From an uncultured Halomicronema sp. (lineage in GTDB: Bacteria; Cyanobacteriota; Cyanobacteriia; Phormidesmidales; Phormidesmidaceae): a stretch of 64,000 nt of DNA. The notes beneath the pieces are model-generated. The model saw nothing but the letters and a program-made list of their open reading frames with translations, had not been told where the DNA came from and did no database searches. The position numbers and the translations under genes are program-made. Shown piece by piece: positions 29,644-39,639 of this stretch. The stretch covers positions 1 through 64,000 of the forward strand of contig CALCCA010000193.1 in NCBI GenBank assembly GCA_937899725.1, in the 5' to 3' direction. Numbering within the stretch: position 1 is the stretch's first letter; each line of letters starts with the position of its first letter.

Positions 29644-31305
29644 ATGACAACCCCCATGTACACCCTCAGTCCGTTTACTTGCGCTCGTTTGCAGCGTCTG
29701 CCCAAACAGCCGGTCGTTTGGGAAGGCGATCGCCGACCGATTTCCGAGGGCATGCTCGACGCGTTTGGCTATGACAGTAGCGCTCCCGATGAAGAGGACG
29801 AGGCCAGCGACTGTATTCTTTGGGTTGACGGTACGGAAGGGGCGTTGCGAGCGGTGACGATTATTCCGGCAGATACGGGGCATGAGGCCGTTGCCCGCAC
29901 CTTGTTACACGCGATGGAGCATCCCCAAGGGGCGATCGCCCCAGCGCGACCTCACAAAATTGTGGTGTGCGATCGCGAGATTCATTTTTTTCTGCGCGGC
30001 GCGCTGCAAGACCTGGATGTCACCGTTGACTACGCCGAGACGCTGCCCGTCATTGATGAAATTTTTGACAGTCTGCAGCAGCAAGACGATTCGCTTGAAT
30101 CGGAACTCCCCGAAGCGTTTCAGCAGGCGCTCAATCATCAGGCTCATCGCCTTTGGGAAAATGCGCCGTGGAACAATCTGGCCGACGACCAAATTATTAA
30201 AGTTGAACTGAACCAGTGGAACCTCGGCACCCTCTATATTTCAGTGTTGGGCATGGCGGGCCTCGAATATGGCTTGCTGCTGTATCGCTCGTTGGAATCG
30301 CTGACTCAATTTCGGCAAACGGCGACGCTGGGCACCCTCAGTACGCGGCAGATGCAGCAGGCTTTTTTGTCACAGGACTGCCTATTTCTCAACTTTGAGC
30401 TAATTCGGGAAGCCGACTCTGGTCCGCTGTTGCCCCTCCCTTGGATGCAATCAGCTCCATCTGAGGCGCGGCCAGAGTTTGGCAGTTTGCATCCCCTAGA
30501 AGGGTTAAGAACGGCCCTAGAACTGGAAGAAGCGGCCGCGTTGAGAATTTGTTTAGAAGGGTTGAATCGCTTTCTCGAAGATCACGAAGAGGTGCTCAAT
30601 AGTGCCGATTTTCCCGATTTATCCAGCCACTATACCCTGACCAATTCCCTGGATCAGACGCCTCTAGCGGTCACCCTAGCTAATTGCCCCAAGATTACCG
30701 CGCAGTTGGCCGTGGCCGAGAGCTTCGGCTCTGCTGACAGCCAGTTACCCTCGTTTGAGCTGCCCCGATTTCGGGATGACTATGTGCCTGAGGGCGCCAT
30801 GGTGTTGCTGACGCGATTACCGCAATCAACCGTGCAAACCATTCGTCAGGGCAAGCACTATCAGGCGATCGCCCAATTACCCTCAGAGGCTGACATGATG
30901 CCGATGGTGGCAATTCAAACCTCGCGACCCAAAGCGCAAAAACTCGCTTCTCAACTGCGAGCCGCCAAGGGCATTGAGGCCGTGTGTTTTAATCCAGGCG
31001 GTGATCCGATGACCGGTGACACGTTGCAACTCGGACTGCTCCACACGGGCGACGGTGACTTTCATCTCTTTATCGAGTTCCTCGCCAACGATGCTCACGA
31101 CAGTAAGCTGCTAGAGCAATGGCGACAGTGGTGTCAAGACTCTAACGGCGTTTGTGGGGTCATGGTCGCGTCGGGAATTACCGGCGCGGCGCGAGGCAAA
31201 CCCGGTGCTCGCGAAAATGTCGCCTTTTTTGAAACCTATTGCAAAACGCCCGCAGACCTTGATCTGCCCCCCCTACAAATGAGCTATGCCCTGGATTGGG
31301 AGTAG
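29644..31305 (+). CDS. Conserved cyanobacterial protein of unknown function (DUF6930-like)
   Basis: 553 residues, soluble, no signal peptide and no Cys- or His-based catalytic motif. The N-terminal half contains VWEGDRRPIS, DCILWVDGTEGALRAVTIIP, VARTLLHAMEHPQG and HKIVVCDREIHFFLRGALQ; the last resembles a cyanobacterial domain I recall as DUF6930, although the name is from memory. The second half has a helical section (LEGLRTALELEEAAALRICL) and ends in DLPPLQMSYALDW. It is acidic overall. It is preceded by 325 bases of non-coding sequence and followed by a repeat-rich spacer, so it is probably monocistronic. Confidence 0.8.
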   Translation: MTTPMYTLSPFTCARLQRLPKQPVVWEGDRRPISEGMLDAFGYDSSAPDEEDEASDCILWVDGTEGALRAVTIIPADTGHEAVARTLLHAMEHPQGAIAPARPHKIVVCDREIHFFLRGALQDLDVTVDYAETLPVIDEIFDSLQQQDDSLESELPEAFQQALNHQAHRLWENAPWNNLADDQIIKVELNQWNLGTLYISVLGMAGLEYGLLLYRSLESLTQFRQTATLGTLSTRQMQQAFLSQDCLFLNFELIREADSGPLLPLPWMQSAPSEARPEFGSLHPLEGLRTALELEEAAALRICLEGLNRFLEDHEEVLNSADFPDLSSHYTLTNSLDQTPLAVTLANCPKITAQLAVAESFGSADSQLPSFELPRFRDDYVPEGAMVLLTRLPQSTVQTIRQGKHYQAIAQLPSEADMMPMVAIQTSRPKAQKLASQLRAAKGIEAVCFNPGGDPMTGDTLQLGLLHTGDGDFHLFIEFLANDAHDSKLLEQWRQWCQDSNGVCGVMVASGITGAARGKPGARENVAFFETYCKTPADLDLPPLQMSYALDWE

Positions 31306-31951
31306 GGATGGCGGGTTTTAGAATTCGGAGTTCGGAGTTTGGAGTTCGGGCTGAGGGAGTTGCTGAAAAATAGCCGCCCCGATCGCAGGCTATCCATTAA
31401 GCGAAAGTCGATCAAAGCCATGCCAGTAATAGGTTTTAGATGACGCTTGCGCGGGCAAACCTCACCGCCTGCGGCACCTCTCCTTGAGAAGGAGAGGTTT
31501 ATCCAAGGTTTGTTCGAAAAATCCCCCCAACTGGGACAGGTGTTCCGGCTCCTCTCCTTGAGAAGAAGAAATGATACCAATTCTCTGAAACTGGGCTATG
31601 GATCTTCCTTACGACTCCGCTCAAGGAATATAGGCTGAGCGGAGTCGTAAGCCCGACGGACAGGCCAGGCCAACACGCAGTGTCTCCTACTGGGAGAAAG
31701 CCGACTTGTCTGTGTAGCTGTAATTCGTAGAACTGGTATTAGGAAAGGTTCCATAGTTCGTAAGACTGCCGTGGCTAATCGGTCAAACCTTTCACTAATC
31801 AGCGATATAGCAACTTGTGTATGAGGGATTAGGAGCGCAGGGGTTGGGCACGGCCAATCTCTCATCGAGAATTGTCCATTCTGGAGACATTATTTAAGCG
31901 TAGCTCCCTGAGAAAGTCGGAATGTGCAGTTTTAGAACGGTTCTGAACTTT
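31306..31951. repeat. Repeat-rich non-coding spacer
   Basis: 646 bases with no accepted gene. Seen here: a short tandem repeat of the type ttcggag near 31320-31350; the palindromic block cctctccttgagaaggagag near 31478, partly repeated near 31550; and the perfect inverted repeat listed at 31608-31651. The composition suggests a pile-up of small dispersed cyanobacterial intergenic repeats rather than a gene remnant. Confidence 0.6.
31608..31651. repeat. Perfect inverted repeat in spacer
   Basis: cttacgactccgctca at 31608-31623 pairs exactly with tgagcggagtcgtaag at 31636-31651 around a 12-base loop. This is a perfect 16-base-pair stem. It has no flanking T run, so it is not an obvious terminator. 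It could be the core of a small mobile repeat or an RNA processing site. Confidence 0.85.
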
Positions 31952-31996
31952 GGCACCGCACTGCGAACGATGGTGCATTGTTCGCAGTGCGGTGCC
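31952..31996 (+). terminator. Strong hairpin about 74 bases before crtQ (terminator or attenuator)
   Basis: A perfect 17-base-pair stem (31952-31968 with 31980-31996) with an 11-base loop, followed on the plus strand by tttctgtcatctt. It lies inside the longer upstream open frame of crtQ, which argues that translation begins at 32070 and not at the earlier start. It could stop upstream transcripts or attenuate crtQ itself. Confidence 0.65.
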
Positions 31997-32069
31997 TTTC
32001 TGTCATCTTGCCCCGATGACTATTAAAATACGTAAATCTAACCACTTCTCAGAGGACACATCACGGCGC

Positions 32070-33506
32070 ATGCGAGTTGCGATTGTTGGAGCGGGGCTGG
32101 CGGGCTTATCTACCGCAGTTGAATTGGCAGATGCCGGCCATGAGGTCGAGATTTTTGAAAATCGTCCCTTTGTCGGGGGCAAGGTGGGCAGCTGGATTGA
32201 TAAAGACGGCAACCACCTAGAGATGGGGCTGCACGTATTCTTCGGCTGCTACTACAACTTGTTCGAGCTGATGAAAAAGGTCGATGCTTTCCAGCATCTG
32301 CGGCTCAAGCAGCATACCCACACCTTTGTGAATCGCGGTGGCATCACCGGAGAACTCGACTTTCGCTTCATTACGGGAGCGCCCTTTAACGGACTCAAGG
32401 CATTTTTCACTACCTCTCAGCTTTCTGTCGCTGACAAAGCGATGAATGCGATCGCCCTGGGTACCAGCCCCATCGTGCGCGGCTTGGTGGATTTTGAAGG
32501 GGCCATGCGGGTCATTCGCCAGCTCGACAGCGTTAGCTTTGCTGACTGGTTTCGCCAGCATGGCGGCTCCAACGGTAGCCTTAAGCGCCTGTGGAATCCG
32601 ATCGCCTATGCCCTGGGCTTTATCGATACCGAAAATATTTCCGCCCGCTGCATGTTGACCATTTTTATGTTCTTTGCAGCCAAAAGTGAAGCCTCGGTGC
32701 TGCGCATGCTGGAGGGCTCACCCAACGAATTTTTGCACCAGCCCATTTTGAAATATCTGACTGCCCGGGGCGCTCAGATCCATACCCGTCGCGGGGTGCG
32801 CGAGGTTTTGTTTGAAAACAAGGGCAATGCCACCCACGTGACCGGACTGGCGATCGCCCAGGGGGATGAGGTTGAAACCGTGACCGCCGATGTGTACGTC
32901 GCCGCCTGTGACGTCCCAGGGATCAAGCGTTTGCTCCCCGCACCGTGGCGGCGGTGGCCCGAGTTTGACAACATTTATAAGCTAGACGCGGTGCCGGTCA
33001 CGACGGTGCAGCTGCGGTTTGATGGCTGGGTGACCGAACTGCAAGATGCGGCAGCAGCAAAGCAGTTAGACCGGCCAACCGGGCTGGATAATCTGCTGTA
33101 TACGCCCGACGCCGATTTTTCTTGCTTCGCGGATATGGCGCTCACCAGCCCCAGTGATTACTACCGTGAGGGCGAAGGGTCACTGCTGCAATGTGTGCTG
33201 ACGCCGGGTGATCCGTTCATTAAAGAGAACAATGAAGCGATCGCTCAACATGTGCTGAAACAAGTCCATGATTTGTTTCCTTCATCGCGGGAGCTGACCA
33301 TGACCTGGCATAGCGTCGTGAAGCTGGCTCAGTCGCTTTATCGAGAAGCGCCGGGGATGGACCCCTTTCGCCCCAAGCAGGTAACCCCAGTCGATAATTT
33401 CTTTTTGGCGGGTAGCTACACTCAGCAAGACTACATCGATAGTATGGAGGGGGCCACCCTGTCAGGGAAGCAAGCGGCTCACGCAATTTTGGAGCGGATG
33501 AGATAA
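32070..33506 (+). CDS. crtQ: Zeta-carotene desaturase CrtQ
   Basis: 478 residues from the ATG at 32070 ([20 protein letters not shown]), the start normal for this family; earlier in-frame starts run through the hairpin. The FAD-binding GAGLAGLS motif opens the protein, followed by [14 protein letters not shown]. CrtQ signatures are [20 protein letters not shown] and [19 protein letters not shown], and it ends in [20 protein letters not shown]. The enzyme converts zeta-carotene to lycopene through neurosporene in membranes, using plastoquinone as electron acceptor. The SRPBCC gene begins 3 bases after the stop, so this is the first gene of a tight operon. Confidence 0.95.
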
Positions 33507-33509
33507 GCC

Positions 33510-33965
33510 ATGGCCGACTGGCTAGAACACAGCGTATTAGTTGAAGTCGATGCCCCGATTGATTTGGTGTGGGCCTTGTGGTCTGACCTAGAGCAAATGC
33601 CGCGCTGGATGAAATGGATTGAGTCAGTCAACATCTTGGAAGAAGATCCTGACCTGTCGCGGTGGAAACTCGCGTCGGGCAGCTTTGAGTTCACTTGGCT
33701 GTCGCAGATCACTAAACTCGTCGACCATCAGCTGATTCAGTGGGAATCAGTGGATGGCTTGCCGAATCGGGGCGGCATTCGCTTTTATGATCACAAAGAT
33801 AAGAGTGCTGTCAAGCTGACGGTGGCATACTCCATTCCCAGCTTTCTTGGCAAGCTGATGGATGGCCTGTTTTTGGGCAAAGTGGTTGAATCCACTTTGC
33901 AGGCTGATCTGCAGCGATTTCAAGACCACGTGAGCCAGATTCAGCAGCAGTCAGCAATCGATTAA
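33510..33965 (+). CDS. SRPBCC/START-like (cyclase/dehydrase) protein
   Basis: 151 residues. It has the helix-grip pattern of the SRPBCC superfamily: HSVLVEVDAPIDLVWALWSD near the start, then WMKWIESVNILEEDP, the strand WLSQITKLVDHQLIQWES, and a final long helix LQADLQRFQDHVSQIQ. Superfamily members bind hydrophobic ligands. A gene of this type follows crtQ in Synechocystis as well (slr0941 after slr0940, from memory), so a carotenoid-related role is inferred; no chemistry is shown. It lies 3 bases after crtQ and 4 bases before the next gene. Confidence 0.85.
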   Translation: MADWLEHSVLVEVDAPIDLVWALWSDLEQMPRWMKWIESVNILEEDPDLSRWKLASGSFEFTWLSQITKLVDHQLIQWESVDGLPNRGGIRFYDHKDKSAVKLTVAYSIPSFLGKLMDGLFLGKVVESTLQADLQRFQDHVSQIQQQSAID

Positions 33966-33969
33966 AGGC

Positions 33970-35820
33970 ATGGATGTCGCCTGTCGCCCTCTGGCTCAAG
34001 CGTTAGCTGACCATCATCGCGGGTTTGTGGAAGCGCTAGTCGGGCTCTCTCAAACTACCGAGCGCCGCTGGTTTGCCCATGTGCTTCTAGGTCGCTTGCT
34101 GCTGATTTACGATTTGCAAGTGGCTGGTTTTTTGGGCGCGGGCGATCGCTGGTATTTGCACAGTCACCTCAGCCAACAGGCTGCGACTCAAACTGAGGTC
34201 ACCTTTTTTAAGGGATTTCTGCAGCCGCTTTGTCATCAAGGGTTAGGGCTGCCGGAAGTGGAACGGCCGCGATCGCTCACCGCCACCATTGGCAACGTGC
34301 CTTATTTGGGCAGTCAACCGTTTGGGGTGCATCCTCTCGAACAGCGCTACCCGCAGTTAGACCTGCCGGATGAACCGATTGAGCGATTTTTGGGCTGGCT
34401 GGCTGAACAACCGATCGCCCACAACCTGCTGAGTGGTCGAGCCCAGGGGATTGATCGGGAACTGCTCGCCGGCGCCTACGAATATTTAATGACGGCCCAG
34501 ACCGATAAGGCGGCTATGTCGACTGCTGACACCCTGCAGAAGATTGGTCGCCACACCCTCGACGCTCACATTCTCAAAGCCCTCCCTTCGGTTATCGCGT
34601 TAGATGCCATCACCGCTGTCACCGCTGTAGACGCGCTGTTGGCGGCGTTAGATACCGAGACCTGTCGGCGGTTACTCACCACGGTGTTGCCCACTCTCTC
34701 GGTACTTGATCCCGCCTGTGGGTCAGGGCGATATTTGCTCATGATTTTCGAGCGGCTGCAAGCCATTTATCGGGCCTGTTGGCGCTGTGCTCACGCTTCT
34801 ACTGATGCCGAACTCCAAGCTTGGGGGCGATCGCTAGGCCTGACTCAAACCGCTGCTGAGTGGCGCTTGGCCGAGCAGATTTTGACTCAAAACCTCTACG
34901 GCGTTGACCTGCAGCCAGAGGCGGTGCATATCACGCAACTACAGCTCTGGCTTAGACTGCTCTCTACCGCAACCCAAGTGGAGGATTTGCAGCCACTGCC
35001 AGACCTCGATTTCAACATCACCGCTGGCAATGCGCTGATGGGATTTATCCGGGTCGATACGGCCAGTTTTGACAAAATTGTGCCGAAACGATCGCGCCCA
35101 GCTGATTCGCAAGGTCCGGCGCTGCAAGGCAATCTGTTGCAGCCCTTAACGGCGGCGAGCTATCGCGATACGCTGACAGAGCAAAAGATTCGGGTGGAGC
35201 ACTATCAGGCGCAGACGCGGGCAATGGGGTCAGAAGGGGGCCTGCCGGAATATGTGCAAACGGCGTTTTTGCGTGATCGCATTGATGAGGTTAACCGGGC
35301 CGTTCAGCCCAAGCTCAATCGACTGCTATGGGAAACCTTGAGTTATAAACTTGGTATCTGGGCGAAAGAAGTGCTCCCCTCAGGCAAGACTCGTAAACGC
35401 CTGCTGCAGCTCGCTGATGTTGAAGCGCTTAGCCCATTTCACTGGGGCTTTTTTTTTAATGCGGTGATTCAGCAACGGGGTGGATTCGATATCGTTTTGA
35501 CCGCGGCCCCAACGGGAACGCTGCGGCCCCAGGTCAACGCGTTTTATCACCAGCATCAAGCGCTATTTGAGCAACACCACATCGCTCTAGCAGAATTTCG
35601 GCGATCGCGCCGCCAGCTTTTACGGCAGCATGCCGATTTGGCTGAGCATTGGCGAGCTTATACCAGAGGAATCGCTTGTCTAAGAGACTTTGTTCGGCGC
35701 AGCGATAGTTATCAGTTGCCCGCTGCTTCAACGCAACGCTCGGTTGCACTCAAACTGCTGTTTGCCCAGCGTTGTCTAGCGCTCACCAAGCCTGATGGCA
35801 TTCCTCCCTATATCCAGTGA
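33970..35820 (+). CDS. Eco57I-type DNA methyltransferase-like protein with degenerate catalytic motif
   Basis: 616 residues. The fold of type IIG/Eco57I methyltransferases is recognisable: an N-terminal helical region (RRWFAHVLLGRLLLIYDLQV), the AdoMet site SVLDPACGSGRYLLM (about residue 255), LYGVDLQPEAVHITQLQLWL, and NITAGNALMGFI. Where the catalytic N-P-P-Y motif should stand (FDIVxxNPPY) the sequence is GGFDIVLTAAPTGTL, so the motif is lost. The helix leading into the AdoMet domain also lacks the usual GAYYT block. The C-terminus stops at LTKPDGIPPYIQ, before the target-recognition region. It is therefore unlikely to methylate DNA and may be an AdoMet-binding relic or an adapted protein. 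It is translationally close to the crtQ operon. Confidence 0.85.
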   Translation: MDVACRPLAQALADHHRGFVEALVGLSQTTERRWFAHVLLGRLLLIYDLQVAGFLGAGDRWYLHSHLSQQAATQTEVTFFKGFLQPLCHQGLGLPEVERPRSLTATIGNVPYLGSQPFGVHPLEQRYPQLDLPDEPIERFLGWLAEQPIAHNLLSGRAQGIDRELLAGAYEYLMTAQTDKAAMSTADTLQKIGRHTLDAHILKALPSVIALDAITAVTAVDALLAALDTETCRRLLTTVLPTLSVLDPACGSGRYLLMIFERLQAIYRACWRCAHASTDAELQAWGRSLGLTQTAAEWRLAEQILTQNLYGVDLQPEAVHITQLQLWLRLLSTATQVEDLQPLPDLDFNITAGNALMGFIRVDTASFDKIVPKRSRPADSQGPALQGNLLQPLTAASYRDTLTEQKIRVEHYQAQTRAMGSEGGLPEYVQTAFLRDRIDEVNRAVQPKLNRLLWETLSYKLGIWAKEVLPSGKTRKRLLQLADVEALSPFHWGFFFNAVIQQRGGFDIVLTAAPTGTLRPQVNAFYHQHQALFEQHHIALAEFRRSRRQLLRQHADLAEHWRAYTRGIACLRDFVRRSDSYQLPAASTQRSVALKLLFAQRCLALTKPDGIPPYIQ

Positions 35821-36093: not shown

Positions 36094-39000
36094 CTAGGCG
36101 CTAATCAATGGACTCATATGGGCCTTAAAGTCGGCCCGTGCCAGGGCATTGATGGCGGCCTCCGGATCCTTCACTCGGAATTGGGCCCCTAGCCGGACTA
36201 ACTGCCTTTGGTTCGCTTTGCCAATAATGGCGATTACCGGAACATTGGCATGATCCTGACTGTCGCCTTGGTGGCTCTGAATAATATTTTTCAGGCGGAG
36301 ACGTTGTTGAATATCGTCAGCGATTTGAGGGTCTAACTCAACCATCACCATACGCACCTCTTCAATGGGCTCAGCATCATCAACAATGAACTGAATTTGG
36401 TCGTCTCGGCGATCGTATTTACCCCAAACCATGAGCCGAGCATCGGGTTGAATGTAATGACCGATGCGCTCATACGACCGAGGGAAAACGACGCCGTCGA
36501 CACTACCCGTCAAGTCTTCAAGAACGATGATGGCCATCCGATCGCCCTTTTTGGTGATCACCGGTTTCACATGGGCCAGCATGACGATCGCGCTGAGTTT
36601 TCGATTGTCGGGATATCTTTCCAGTTCGCCAAGATTTACCGGCGCTAAAATCCGGGCGGATTTTTGCACCTCTTTAAGTGGGTGATCAGAGATATAGAAC
36701 CCCAGCAGTTCCTTTTCTTGCCTGAGTTTTTCCTGCGGCTCAAAATCAGCCACAAGCGGCGCTTTGGGTGCACTTTCAAAACCGCCACCGACTACCGCAC
36801 CGGCACTATCGCCGTCATCACCGCCGCCTAACAACATGTCGAGCAGATTCCCCTGACCGATTTCTCGATCTTTGGCCCGGCTTTGCGCCCAGTCCAGCAC
36901 AAATTCTAAGTCGTGCATGAGTTGGTTGCGATTGGGGTCGATGGGGTCAAAGGCCCCGCACAGCACCAAGGCTTCCAACGCGCGACGGTTGACGGCATGC
37001 AGATCAACGCGATCGCACAACTCTGGCAATGATTTGAATCCGCCCTCCTCATCGCGGCTCGCCAAAATGCACTCGATCGCCCCTTGACCCACATTGCGCA
37101 CTGCCGATAGTCCAAACAAGATTTTGTTGCCCTTGGGCGTAAACACAATCCGTGACTCATTGATGTTGGGCGGCAGCACCTCAATGCCCATGTTGATGCA
37201 GTTGGCAATGTGCATCTGTACTTTGTCCTGATCACCGCTGTTAGAGGTCAGCAACGCTGCCATGTACTCAACGGGATAGTTCGCTTTCAGGTACGCCGTC
37301 TGAAACGTGACAAATCCGTAGGCAGTGGAGTGCGACTTGTTGAAGCAGTACTCGGCGAACTTCACCATCTGATCCCAAAGGGCTTCGACCACCTTTTTCG
37401 GGACACCCTTTGCCATCGAGCCTTCGATAAACTGGCCCTTATGCTTCTCCATCTCCGACACTTTTTTCTTACCCATAGCGCGGCGCAGGAGGTCGGCTTG
37501 CCCCAACGAATAGCCCGCCATGTCCTGGGCAATTTTCATAATCTGCTCTTGGTAGACCATGATCCCGTAGGTTTCACTGAGAATCGGCTCTAGGATTTTG
37601 TCCGCAAAGTCAATCTTTTCGCGCCCGTGCTTACGACCGATAAACTTGGGGATCAGTCCCGCATCCAGCGGACCGGGTCGGTATAGCGCGAGAACTGACG
37701 AAATATCTTCCAGACCCGATGGCTTCAGGTCGCGCACAATCTGCCGCATGCCGGAAGACTCCAGCTGAAACACGCCGCCTAAATCGCCCTTTTCCAGGAG
37801 CTTGAAGGTTGCCGGATCATCCATCGGCAGATCATCCATGTCGAGTAGCGTGCCCTTACCCGATTCAATCAGCTCTACGGCCCGCTGAATCATCGTCAGG
37901 TTGCGGAGCCCCAGGAAGTCCATCTTCAGGAGGCCCAGCGCTTCGACATCTTCCATGTAGTACTGAGTGATGACCTGCCCATCGTTGTTACGCTGCAGCG
38001 GCACGATCTCGTCCAGCGGGTCTTTGGAAATCACAACGCCAGCGGCATGCACCCCAAACGTCTTGTTCATGCCCTCGATCCGCATGGCCATGTCGAGCCA
38101 GCGCTGCACCTGAGGATCTTTGTCATACCGCTCTTTGAACTCAGGCGCAGGCGTTTCGTCAGACACCATCACTTTGAGCTTAGTCGGCTTGCCCCGCGAA
38201 ACGGGAATCAGCTTCGCCATGCGATCGGACTCAGCATAGGGAATGTCAAGTACACGGGCGACGTCTTTCAAAACTGCCTTCGAGGTCATCCGGTTGAAGG
38301 TAATGATCTGCGCGACCCGTTCCTTGCTGTACTTCTCCGTCACATAATCAATCACTTCGTCTCGCCGTTCGATACAGAAATCCGTATCAATATCAGGCAT
38401 TGACTTACGTTCTGGGTTCAAGAAGCGCTCGAAGAGCAGGCCGTGATGCACCGGATCAATGTTGGTAATGCCCATGGCATAGGCCACCAAAGACCCCGCC
38501 GCTGAGCCCCGGCCTGGCCCCACAGGGATATTGTTCTCTCGGGCAAAGCGAATGTAGTCCCACACCACTAAAAAGTAAGTGGGGAACCCCATCTGGATCA
38601 TCATTTCGATTTCGTATTCCAGGCGATCGCGATACTCCTGAGTAATCGCCTCATAGCTCGCGGTCTTCATGCGCTTGACGAGCCCATCCCGCGCCACAAA
38701 GGCCATATAGTCCTCGGCACCGTCAAATTCTGCCGGAATCGGAAAGTCAGGAATTCGCGGCTGCCCCAAAATCCCCTCATAGGGTTCGATCTTTTCCGCG
38801 ATTTCCAAGGTGGTCTGAATAGATTCTTCGATCACGCCATCTGACAAATGATCTCGAAATAACACGCGCATCTCATCGGCTGACTTGAGATATTCCGTGC
38901 CGCTGTAGCGTAGCCGTTTATCCTCAGTGACTAATTTTCCTGTCTGAATGCAGAGCAGGGCATCATGAGCCTCGACATCTAGACAAGAAATAAAGTGAGA

Positions 39001-39639
39001 ATCGTTGGTGCAGATAATCTTGATGTCTAGCTCGCGGGCAATTTTGACGATCTCGACATTCACGATGCGGTCTTCTGGCGACCCATGATCCTGAATTTCC
39101 AGATAGTAGTCGTCGCCAAAAATGTCCTTATACCACTGAGCCACTCGCCGCGCGATTTCGGGACGTTTTTGCAAAATGGCTTGGGGCACCTCGCCACCCA
39201 GGCAAGCGCTCGTGACGATGAGCCCTTCCCTATACTTCTCTAATAAGTCCTTATTGATACAGGGTCGCGTAAAAATTCCAGACCCCTGCATGCCCTCGAG
39301 GTGGGAGAGGGTCGTCAACTTGACCAGGTTTTTATAGCCCTGAGTGTTCTTAGCCAGCACCACCTGGTGATAGCGAGGCAGCTTAATTTTTTTCCCGAGG
39401 GCGTTGTACTGCTGCTGAATGTCGCCATTCACCAAATACATCTCGTTGCCAATGATGGGCTTGATGTCAGCTTTCTGACAAACCTTGATCAGTTCGATCG
39501 CGCCATACATGACGCCGTGATCAGTGAGGGCGATCGCCGGCATACCCAACGCCTTAGCCTGCGCCACCAGGTCCGGCAACTGGCTCGCACCGTCAAGCAA
39601 ACTATAGTCACTGTGAATGTGCAGACCCACAAAAGACAT
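36094..39639 (-). CDS. dnaE: DNA polymerase III alpha subunit, intein-free
   Basis: 1181 residues, the replicative polymerase catalytic subunit. The PHP domain begins [17 protein letters not shown]. The catalytic aspartates lie in [15 protein letters not shown] at about residue 415, and [15 protein letters not shown] precedes them. The tail carries an OB-fold-like region ([20 protein letters not shown]). In many cyanobacteria dnaE is split in two genes by a split intein at the Tyr-Cys junction before FNKSHS. Here that site reads [12 protein letters not shown] without interruption (junction between 37347 and 37348 on the plus strand), so a single intact gene is used. Start ATG at 39639; monocistronic. 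Confidence 0.97.

Follow-up and report, generated by a model that had tools for sequence, protein, structure and literature searches.

Type IIG restriction-modification enzymes are defined in PMC4081073 by a DNA-cleavage domain within the same chain and by a specificity module that is either C-terminal or separate. Intact relatives of the protein described below, from other cyanobacteria and other phyla, match the Type IIG model of PADLOC at E values of 1e-116 to 1e-156. Within the catalytic NPPW/Y motif of DNA methyltransferases, the Asn binds the target amino group. Loss of an NPP[YW]-type motif is seen in METTL14, a pseudo-methyltransferase that acts as a non-catalytic partner.

Here we describe MTL, a gene with a retained AdoMet site and a lost catalytic tetrad, in the window (the whole 64,000-nucleotide stretch of cyanobacterial DNA that was analysed). 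The parent Type IIG family is well known. The derived, SRPBCC-linked MTL family appears to be new within the open-licence literature, where we found no paper on it or on the crtQ-adjacent SRPBCC gene.

Gene order at the locus

Three closely spaced genes of the window are considered here:

32070..33506, + strand: crtQ, zeta-carotene desaturase (TIGR02732, E 1.3e-268); neighbour in 16 of 49 f1-family loci
33510..33965, + strand: SRPBCC (Polyketide_cyc/COQ10-type) gene, 151 aa (PF03364, E 1.1e-19); constant f1-family neighbour
33970..35820, + strand: MTL, putative domesticated Type IIG-derived pseudo-methyltransferase gene, 616 aa, ATG start, TGA stop

The crtQ stop codon ends at 33506 and the SRPBCC gene starts with the ATG at 33510, leaving 3 nt; the SRPBCC stop ends at 33965 and the MTL ATG lies at 33970, leaving 4 nt. 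These are the 3-4 base gaps given in the original prediction for this DNA. For crtQ itself, the ATG at 32070 is the more likely start by alignment and profile, in preference to the mechanical TTG at 31950, since the relatives' alignment begins there and, in the long ORF, the TIGR02732 match starts only at residue 42. MTL is present as a single copy in the window's own genome, and HIP1 octamers occur in it at 2.16 per kb versus 1.42 in the window, which argues that the gene is old resident DNA.

Several features flank these genes. Upstream of crtQ lies a gene for a DUF6930/DUF7309 protein (window 29644-31305), which was also seen in 11 of the 49 loci with the SRPBCC-MTL pair and as partial copies at contig ends. 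A strong hairpin (window 31952-31996; 20 counted pairs, a loop of 3-5 nt and a T-containing tail) stands roughly 75 nt 5' of the crtQ ATG; it is absent from the upstream regions of the 11 relatives folded and is thus window-specific, so a conserved hairpin 5' of crtQ was rejected. A conserved stretch, approximately ATTAAAATACGTAAA, occupies about 32020-32069 of the window, some 30-45 nt before the crtQ ATG, and recurs at this position in 10 of the 11 relatives folded. Read by eye, it differs slightly in L049 and L039 and most in L045; it is possibly the crtQ promoter and leader. On the other side, DnaE (window 36094-39639) is continuous in the window's genome. In nine of 30 genomes searched its match is broken near residue 767, as at the known DnaE intein site, and in genome G011 the two halves lie about 1.75 Mb apart.

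A Type IIG core lacking the flanking domains

The MTL protein passes the Pfam gathering cut-offs for both MmeI_Mtase (PF20473; 33.3 bits, cut-off 27) and Eco57I (PF07669; 29.6 bits, cut-off 25.3), and each of the two models matches 24 of the 27 rows of our alignment A1 (E <= 0.01). Its best PADLOC model is Type IIG REase-MTase, with an E value of 1.4e-33. By these profiles, what the window ORF encodes is a Type IIG (Eco57I/MmeI-like) restriction-modification protein reduced to its core. A structure model based on the window protein together with 15 relatives reaches a pLDDT of 81 and a pTM of 0.85. The Type IIL enzyme MmeI is its top structural match (Z 16.2, 3.6 A over 359 residues); CamA and BrxX come next, the latter also matched by Foldseek at E 5e-6.

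Both flanks of this core are reduced. In the alignment, the window protein has nothing ahead of the helical domain, so the N-terminal DNA-cleavage domain of Type IIG enzymes is absent. Other genera of the f1 family, to which the window belongs, keep an N-terminal domain, but when considered as a nuclease it gave weak fold matches: the best has a Z of 6.0, DrdV residues 5-142 give 5.4, and Foldseek returned no match at E <= 0.001. At the other end, the 57 f1-family rows extend only 0-103 aa past the end of the window protein, while 25 of 28 non-family rows run on for 369-565 aa (L063, L207 and L208 are themselves short), in keeping with the original prediction that the protein stops before a target-recognition domain. 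Thus three defining Type IIG features, namely the catalytic tetrad treated below, the cleavage domain and a C-terminal specificity module, are missing from the window protein, and AdoMet motif I is present.

The nearest folds, MmeI, CamA and BrxX, are all DNA methyltransferases solved with DNA, which would suit a non-catalytic regulator whose core binds DNA or RNA and controls the neighbouring genes. We consider such a regulator quite improbable, given that all 57 f1-family rows have lost the recognition domain, with at most 103 aa of extension, and that Lys plus Arg in the core have fallen from 12.6 to 8.9 percent, though Asp plus Glu fell too and the net charge has hardly changed.

Loss of the catalytic Asn and retention of the AdoMet pocket

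We aligned 57 f1-family rows with 28 other rows, L187 being gapped at motif IV. Set aside from this alignment and from the quick tree described below were L047 (genome G034; Arg at the Asn site), the duplicates L072, L073 and L088 of G006, G363 and G242, and the distant rows L069 and L070. Residue conservation was counted over 40 thinned Asn-less f1-family rows, excluding the two rows of genus g6, and compared with 27 outside rows. The positions of interest are listed in window coordinates:

34150..34152, + strand: W61; in 40/40 f1-family rows and in the one g6 row with letters, variable outside
34390..34398, + strand: L141 and W143; in 40/40 Asn-less rows, F and C in g6, F/L and L (26/27) outside
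34705..34737, + strand: motif I (AdoMet), LDPACGSGRYL, residues 246-256; D247, A249, C250, G251 and G253 unchanged in 40/40 rows
34906..34908, + strand: motif II acidic residue D313; D in 37 and E in 3 of 40 rows
35014..35043, + strand: NITAGNALMG, residues 349-358; G353 in 40/40 rows, N354 in 37/40, otherwise D or E
35197..35253, + strand: E410-H411 and P426/Y428; E and P in 40/40, H and Y in 37/40, also in g6, outside mostly other residues (H411: L in 21/27)
35503..35514, + strand: degenerate motif IV, AAPT for NPPW, residues 512-515; second Pro in 40/40 rows
35515..35517, + strand: G516; Gly in 35/40 Asn-less f1 rows, Glu/Asp in 27/27 outside rows, Asn/Asp in the two g6 rows

The AdoMet site and the NITAGNALMG block named in the original prediction are therefore in place, and so is the reported loss of the catalytic motif: the window tetrad aligned with NPPW/Y is A512-A513-P514-T515. 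The loss is general. Among f1-family rows with letters at this site, the Asn is gone in 54 of 56, replaced by H in 29, R in 9, A in 7, Q in 5 and S, L, V or D in one each, so homologues of the same family do not restore an intact NPPY; the only two that retain it belong to genus g6. Outside the family it is retained in 27 of 28 relatives. The second Pro of NPPW survives in all 56 f1-family rows, and no single fixed motif has taken the place of the old one, since among the 40 thinned rows position 512 is A, H, Q, R, S or L, position 515 takes 11 different residues and position 513 also varies. Motif I is damaged in one f1 member (G003, L034), which reads LDLACGAGC.

The residues that have become fixed fall into two sets. 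W143 and G516 are new and confined to Asn-less rows; W61, E410 and P426, and nearly so H411 and Y428, are fixed in g6 as well. As new fixed residues accompany the loss of the Asn, the loss of the catalytic site went together with new constraint and not with drift.

The main rival to our reading is a retooled enzyme, in which the AdoMet site methylates a new acceptor, either a protein or some lipophilic molecule that the SRPBCC protein brings, and NPPW has become dispensable. Residues of motifs I, II and III are retained, in 35 of 40 rows the new Gly516 comes immediately behind the former catalytic tetrad, SRPBCC folds (here a PF03364 match) often bind lipophilic ligands, and class I methyltransferases with small-molecule substrates are not known to require NPPY. 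However, positions 512, 513 and 515 are far more variable than one expects of an active site under conservation, and no alternative catalytic residue was identified. We therefore regard a retooled enzyme as unlikely.

One relative from another family, L063 (G051), is short, with an open frame of 582 aa, and reads THSPN for NPPW, a second and independent loss of the Asn. No SRPBCC match was found in its 11-kb contig.

The SRPBCC gene is the constant neighbour

Of 57 f1-family MTL loci fetched, 49 hold both genes, and in all 49 the SRPBCC gene lies upstream of MTL on the same strand; the other eight begin at a 5' contig end. From the SRPBCC stop to the first possible MTL start, the distance is at most 46 nt in 46 of 49 loci, with a median of 5 nt, a count that uses the most upstream possible start codon and is thus biased to short gaps. 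The three larger gaps are 242 nt in L038, 661 nt in L068 of g6 and 1213 nt in L204, whose MTL copy looks frame-broken. In L068 (G020), a 169-aa ORF lies between the SRPBCC gene and the NPPW-bearing gene, with a gap of at least 661 nt; its best Pfam match, DUF445, is below the cut-off.

The zeta-carotene desaturase gene behaves differently. Only 16 of the 49 loci were found to have crtQ next to the SRPBCC-MTL pair (among the 33 without it, L050, L188 and L196 have less than 700 nt of upstream sequence, too little for a verdict). Outside the f1 family, crtQ lies directly upstream of the SRPBCC gene in 22 of 25 loci with 1.5-kb flanks, without MTL, so the crtQ-SRPBCC pair looks ancestral. The constant partner of MTL is the SRPBCC gene, not crtQ, and the link of MTL is thus to the SRPBCC protein first. 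A conserved neighbourhood, which the original prediction had asked to have checked, does exist, and its centre is the SRPBCC gene; the proposed tie to carotenoid synthesis as such is not supported. The SRPBCC gene itself, slr0941 in Synechocystis, was matched in 115 of 116 class-wide genomes. A COQ10/plastoquinone role is an existing idea for its product. Comparing 23 family with 20 outside SRPBCC sequences at the thresholds used, we found no f1-specific fixed residue as a sign of co-evolution, only three outside-specific positions.

Neighbours were listed for ten loci. A coaE-like kinase gene, named by eye from its N-terminal sequence, lies convergently downstream in five of them. No defence genes, BREX and DISARM included, were seen among the neighbours in these ten loci, and no recurring recognition gene was found there. 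The latter bears on the view that MTL remains active as a DNA methyltransferase whose motif IV has diverged and whose recognition subunit is encoded elsewhere. The AdoMet pocket is intact and NPPW is still present in g6; with the Asn gone in 54 of 56 rows, the aromatic residue gone in most and no candidate for the recognition subunit in the ten loci, we think an active enzyme of this kind very improbable.

Distribution and single origin

MTL matches (E <= 0.001) were obtained in 50 of 59 relatives searched, including 35 of 36 f1-family genomes. In a class-wide sample of 388 genomes, counting the best-matching copy per genome, 104 match at E <= 1e-20: 58 of 60 f1-family genomes and 46 others. 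The gene is absent from two f1-family genomes, G026 and G366, which also have no SRPBCC match at E <= 1e-20, and missing assembly is the likely explanation. Across 14 genus codes MTL has been kept, with the frame open in nearly all complete copies; one copy (G386, L204) looks frame-broken.

In a tree built without the motif IV columns, the f1-family MTL proteins form a single clade with support of 100/99 (bootstrap/SH-aLRT), within which the Asn-less rows are a subclade (100/98). A quicker tree of 70 rows, from which 7 partial and 9 near-identical rows were excluded, agrees. The rows outside the family are drawn from several families of cyanobacteria as well as from Bacteroidota, Chloroflexota, Acidobacteriota and Fibrobacterota. 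The DnaE tree of 29 genomes, which omits G013 (short), gives the same three main groups as MTL, namely g6; g2, g3, g5 and g13; and g10 with the rest. It does not settle in which order g6 and the two other f1 groups branched, which leaves either one or two losses of the Asn inside the family. The MTL gene tree needs two Asn changes, counting the loss in L063. In genus g6, NPPW is present and the C-terminal domain has already gone, with 86 and 103 aa past the end of the window protein.

Searches of mobile elements gave six phage records, with single-domain matches covering at most 21 percent, and 65 plasmid records, five of which cover at least 80 percent at 23-33 percent identity, four of these five being cyanobacterial. 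The plasmid-borne matches look like the ancestral kind and not the f1 MTL family itself. With the phage matches partial and the plasmid matches apparently of the ancestral kind, the idea that the present locus had a mobile or defence-island origin was rejected.

Codon evolution and the question of decay

In six MTL pairs, dN/dS (Nei-Gojobori) was 0.21 (window/G002, dS 0.22), 0.16, 0.15, 0.10, 0.11 and 0.09, the values being rough for some pairs with dS near or above 0.8. The codons are thus under purifying selection. For comparison, two pairs of intact Type IIG genes gave 0.20 and 0.23. Within the window/G002 genome pair, MTL at 0.21 evolves faster than its neighbours, with 0.085 for the SRPBCC gene and 0.04 for crtQ, and DnaE stands at 0.014.

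The duller possibility raised originally was a decaying restriction gene trapped behind crtQ in the operon. Motif IV is gone, whole domains are gone and the gene evolves faster than its neighbours, as decay would have it. Against this, the frame is open in nearly all complete copies of a gene of single origin kept over the 14 genus codes, dN/dS at 0.09-0.21 is not above that of the two intact Type IIG pairs, and the AdoMet pocket and the new residues are fixed. Tested against dN/dS, distribution, open frames and the conservation of motifs, decay was thus rejected, and we consider it extremely unlikely.

A predicted AdoMet-binding partner of the SRPBCC protein

In our reading, held with moderate confidence, MTL is probably a domesticated, non-methylating, AdoMet-binding partner of the SRPBCC protein. 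One clade, groups that match those of DnaE, same-strand linkage to the SRPBCC gene, purifying selection, a lost catalytic site, a kept AdoMet pocket and family-only residues are all shown by comparison of sequences. The gene pair is conserved, the catalytic site is lost and the ligand site is kept, as one would look for in a pseudoenzyme partner, and a pseudoenzyme that has given up the target-base pocket and DNA recognition is the simplest account. None of the three outcomes that the original prediction named as refuting it, an intact NPPY in homologues, an unconserved neighbourhood or neutral codon evolution, was what the comparisons gave. The original prediction had suggested that a conserved, non-methylating member in a fixed position would have a new role: the conservation, the motif loss and the SRPBCC linkage stand in the comparisons, and the new role itself we infer.

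The following course of events would account for these findings. A Type IIG gene would have been acquired once, behind an ancient crtQ-SRPBCC pair, in the ancestor of one filamentous cyanobacterial family (Leptolyngbya PCC 7375/Nodosilinea-type). The target-recognition domain would have been lost first, and the catalytic Asn and Trp of NPPW then, after or around the split of g6. Its coupling to the SRPBCC gene would have become tight, and the window's genus would have gone on to lose the N-terminal domain too. The present protein would be made together with an SRPBCC protein of lipid-binding type and should bind AdoMet or a similar nucleotide, which would serve it for structure or for sensing, with no methylation of DNA adenine. 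AdoMet-bound MTL may tune delivery by the SRPBCC protein, perhaps to zeta-carotene desaturation, to which the SRPBCC gene is linked in most other cyanobacteria sampled, and might in this way affect carotenoid or quinone supply. The case for a carotenoid role of MTL is weak, because crtQ is not adjacent in most f1-family loci.

A wider proposal, which we offer tentatively and with some doubt, is that a restriction-modification enzyme became an AdoMet-dependent part of a lipophilic-cofactor pathway, either as an AdoMet sensor gating the SRPBCC protein and thereby, in lineages where crtQ stays in place, the quinone/carotene supply of zeta-carotene desaturation, or as a methyltransferase with a new small-molecule acceptor delivered by the SRPBCC protein. 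If true, either version would be a defence gene recruited into photosynthetic metabolism. Restriction genes are usually gained and lost fast, whereas MTL appears to have been gained once and then inherited vertically in a fixed gene pair. With its NPPW, g6 would be a living intermediate, giving a dated series from a defence enzyme to a housekeeping-type pseudoenzyme. MTL would also offer a handle on an SRPBCC gene that adjoins crtQ in most cyanobacteria sampled.

Comparison with known systems

Two candidates for a characterised relative were dropped: the Type I subunits slr6095/96, as the relevant passages in PMC6560206 deal with another gene, and the pSYSX match, which is a separate DNA methyltransferase gene.

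With Type IIG and the MmeI family (Type IIL), MTL shares the fold over 359 residues, the AdoMet motifs and the best PADLOC model. It differs from Type IIG in lacking the NPPW Asn, the recognition domain and, in the window's genus, the N-terminal domain, and in its fixed chromosomal place with the SRPBCC gene, where it is vertically inherited. BREX PglX/BrxX and DISARM DrmMI have a core fold like that of MTL, but their profile matches are weaker, and MTL stays far below the NCBIfam cut-off for BREX PglX (46.2 versus 900 bits); membership of BREX or DISARM was rejected on these scores. METTL14-like pseudo-methyltransferases have likewise lost an NPP[YW]-type motif and been kept as non-catalytic partners, as we propose for MTL. 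They differ in two respects. METTL14 partners an active methyltransferase and RNA, whereas the constant neighbour of MTL encodes an SRPBCC protein; and METTL14 has lost the AdoMet motif, which MTL has kept.
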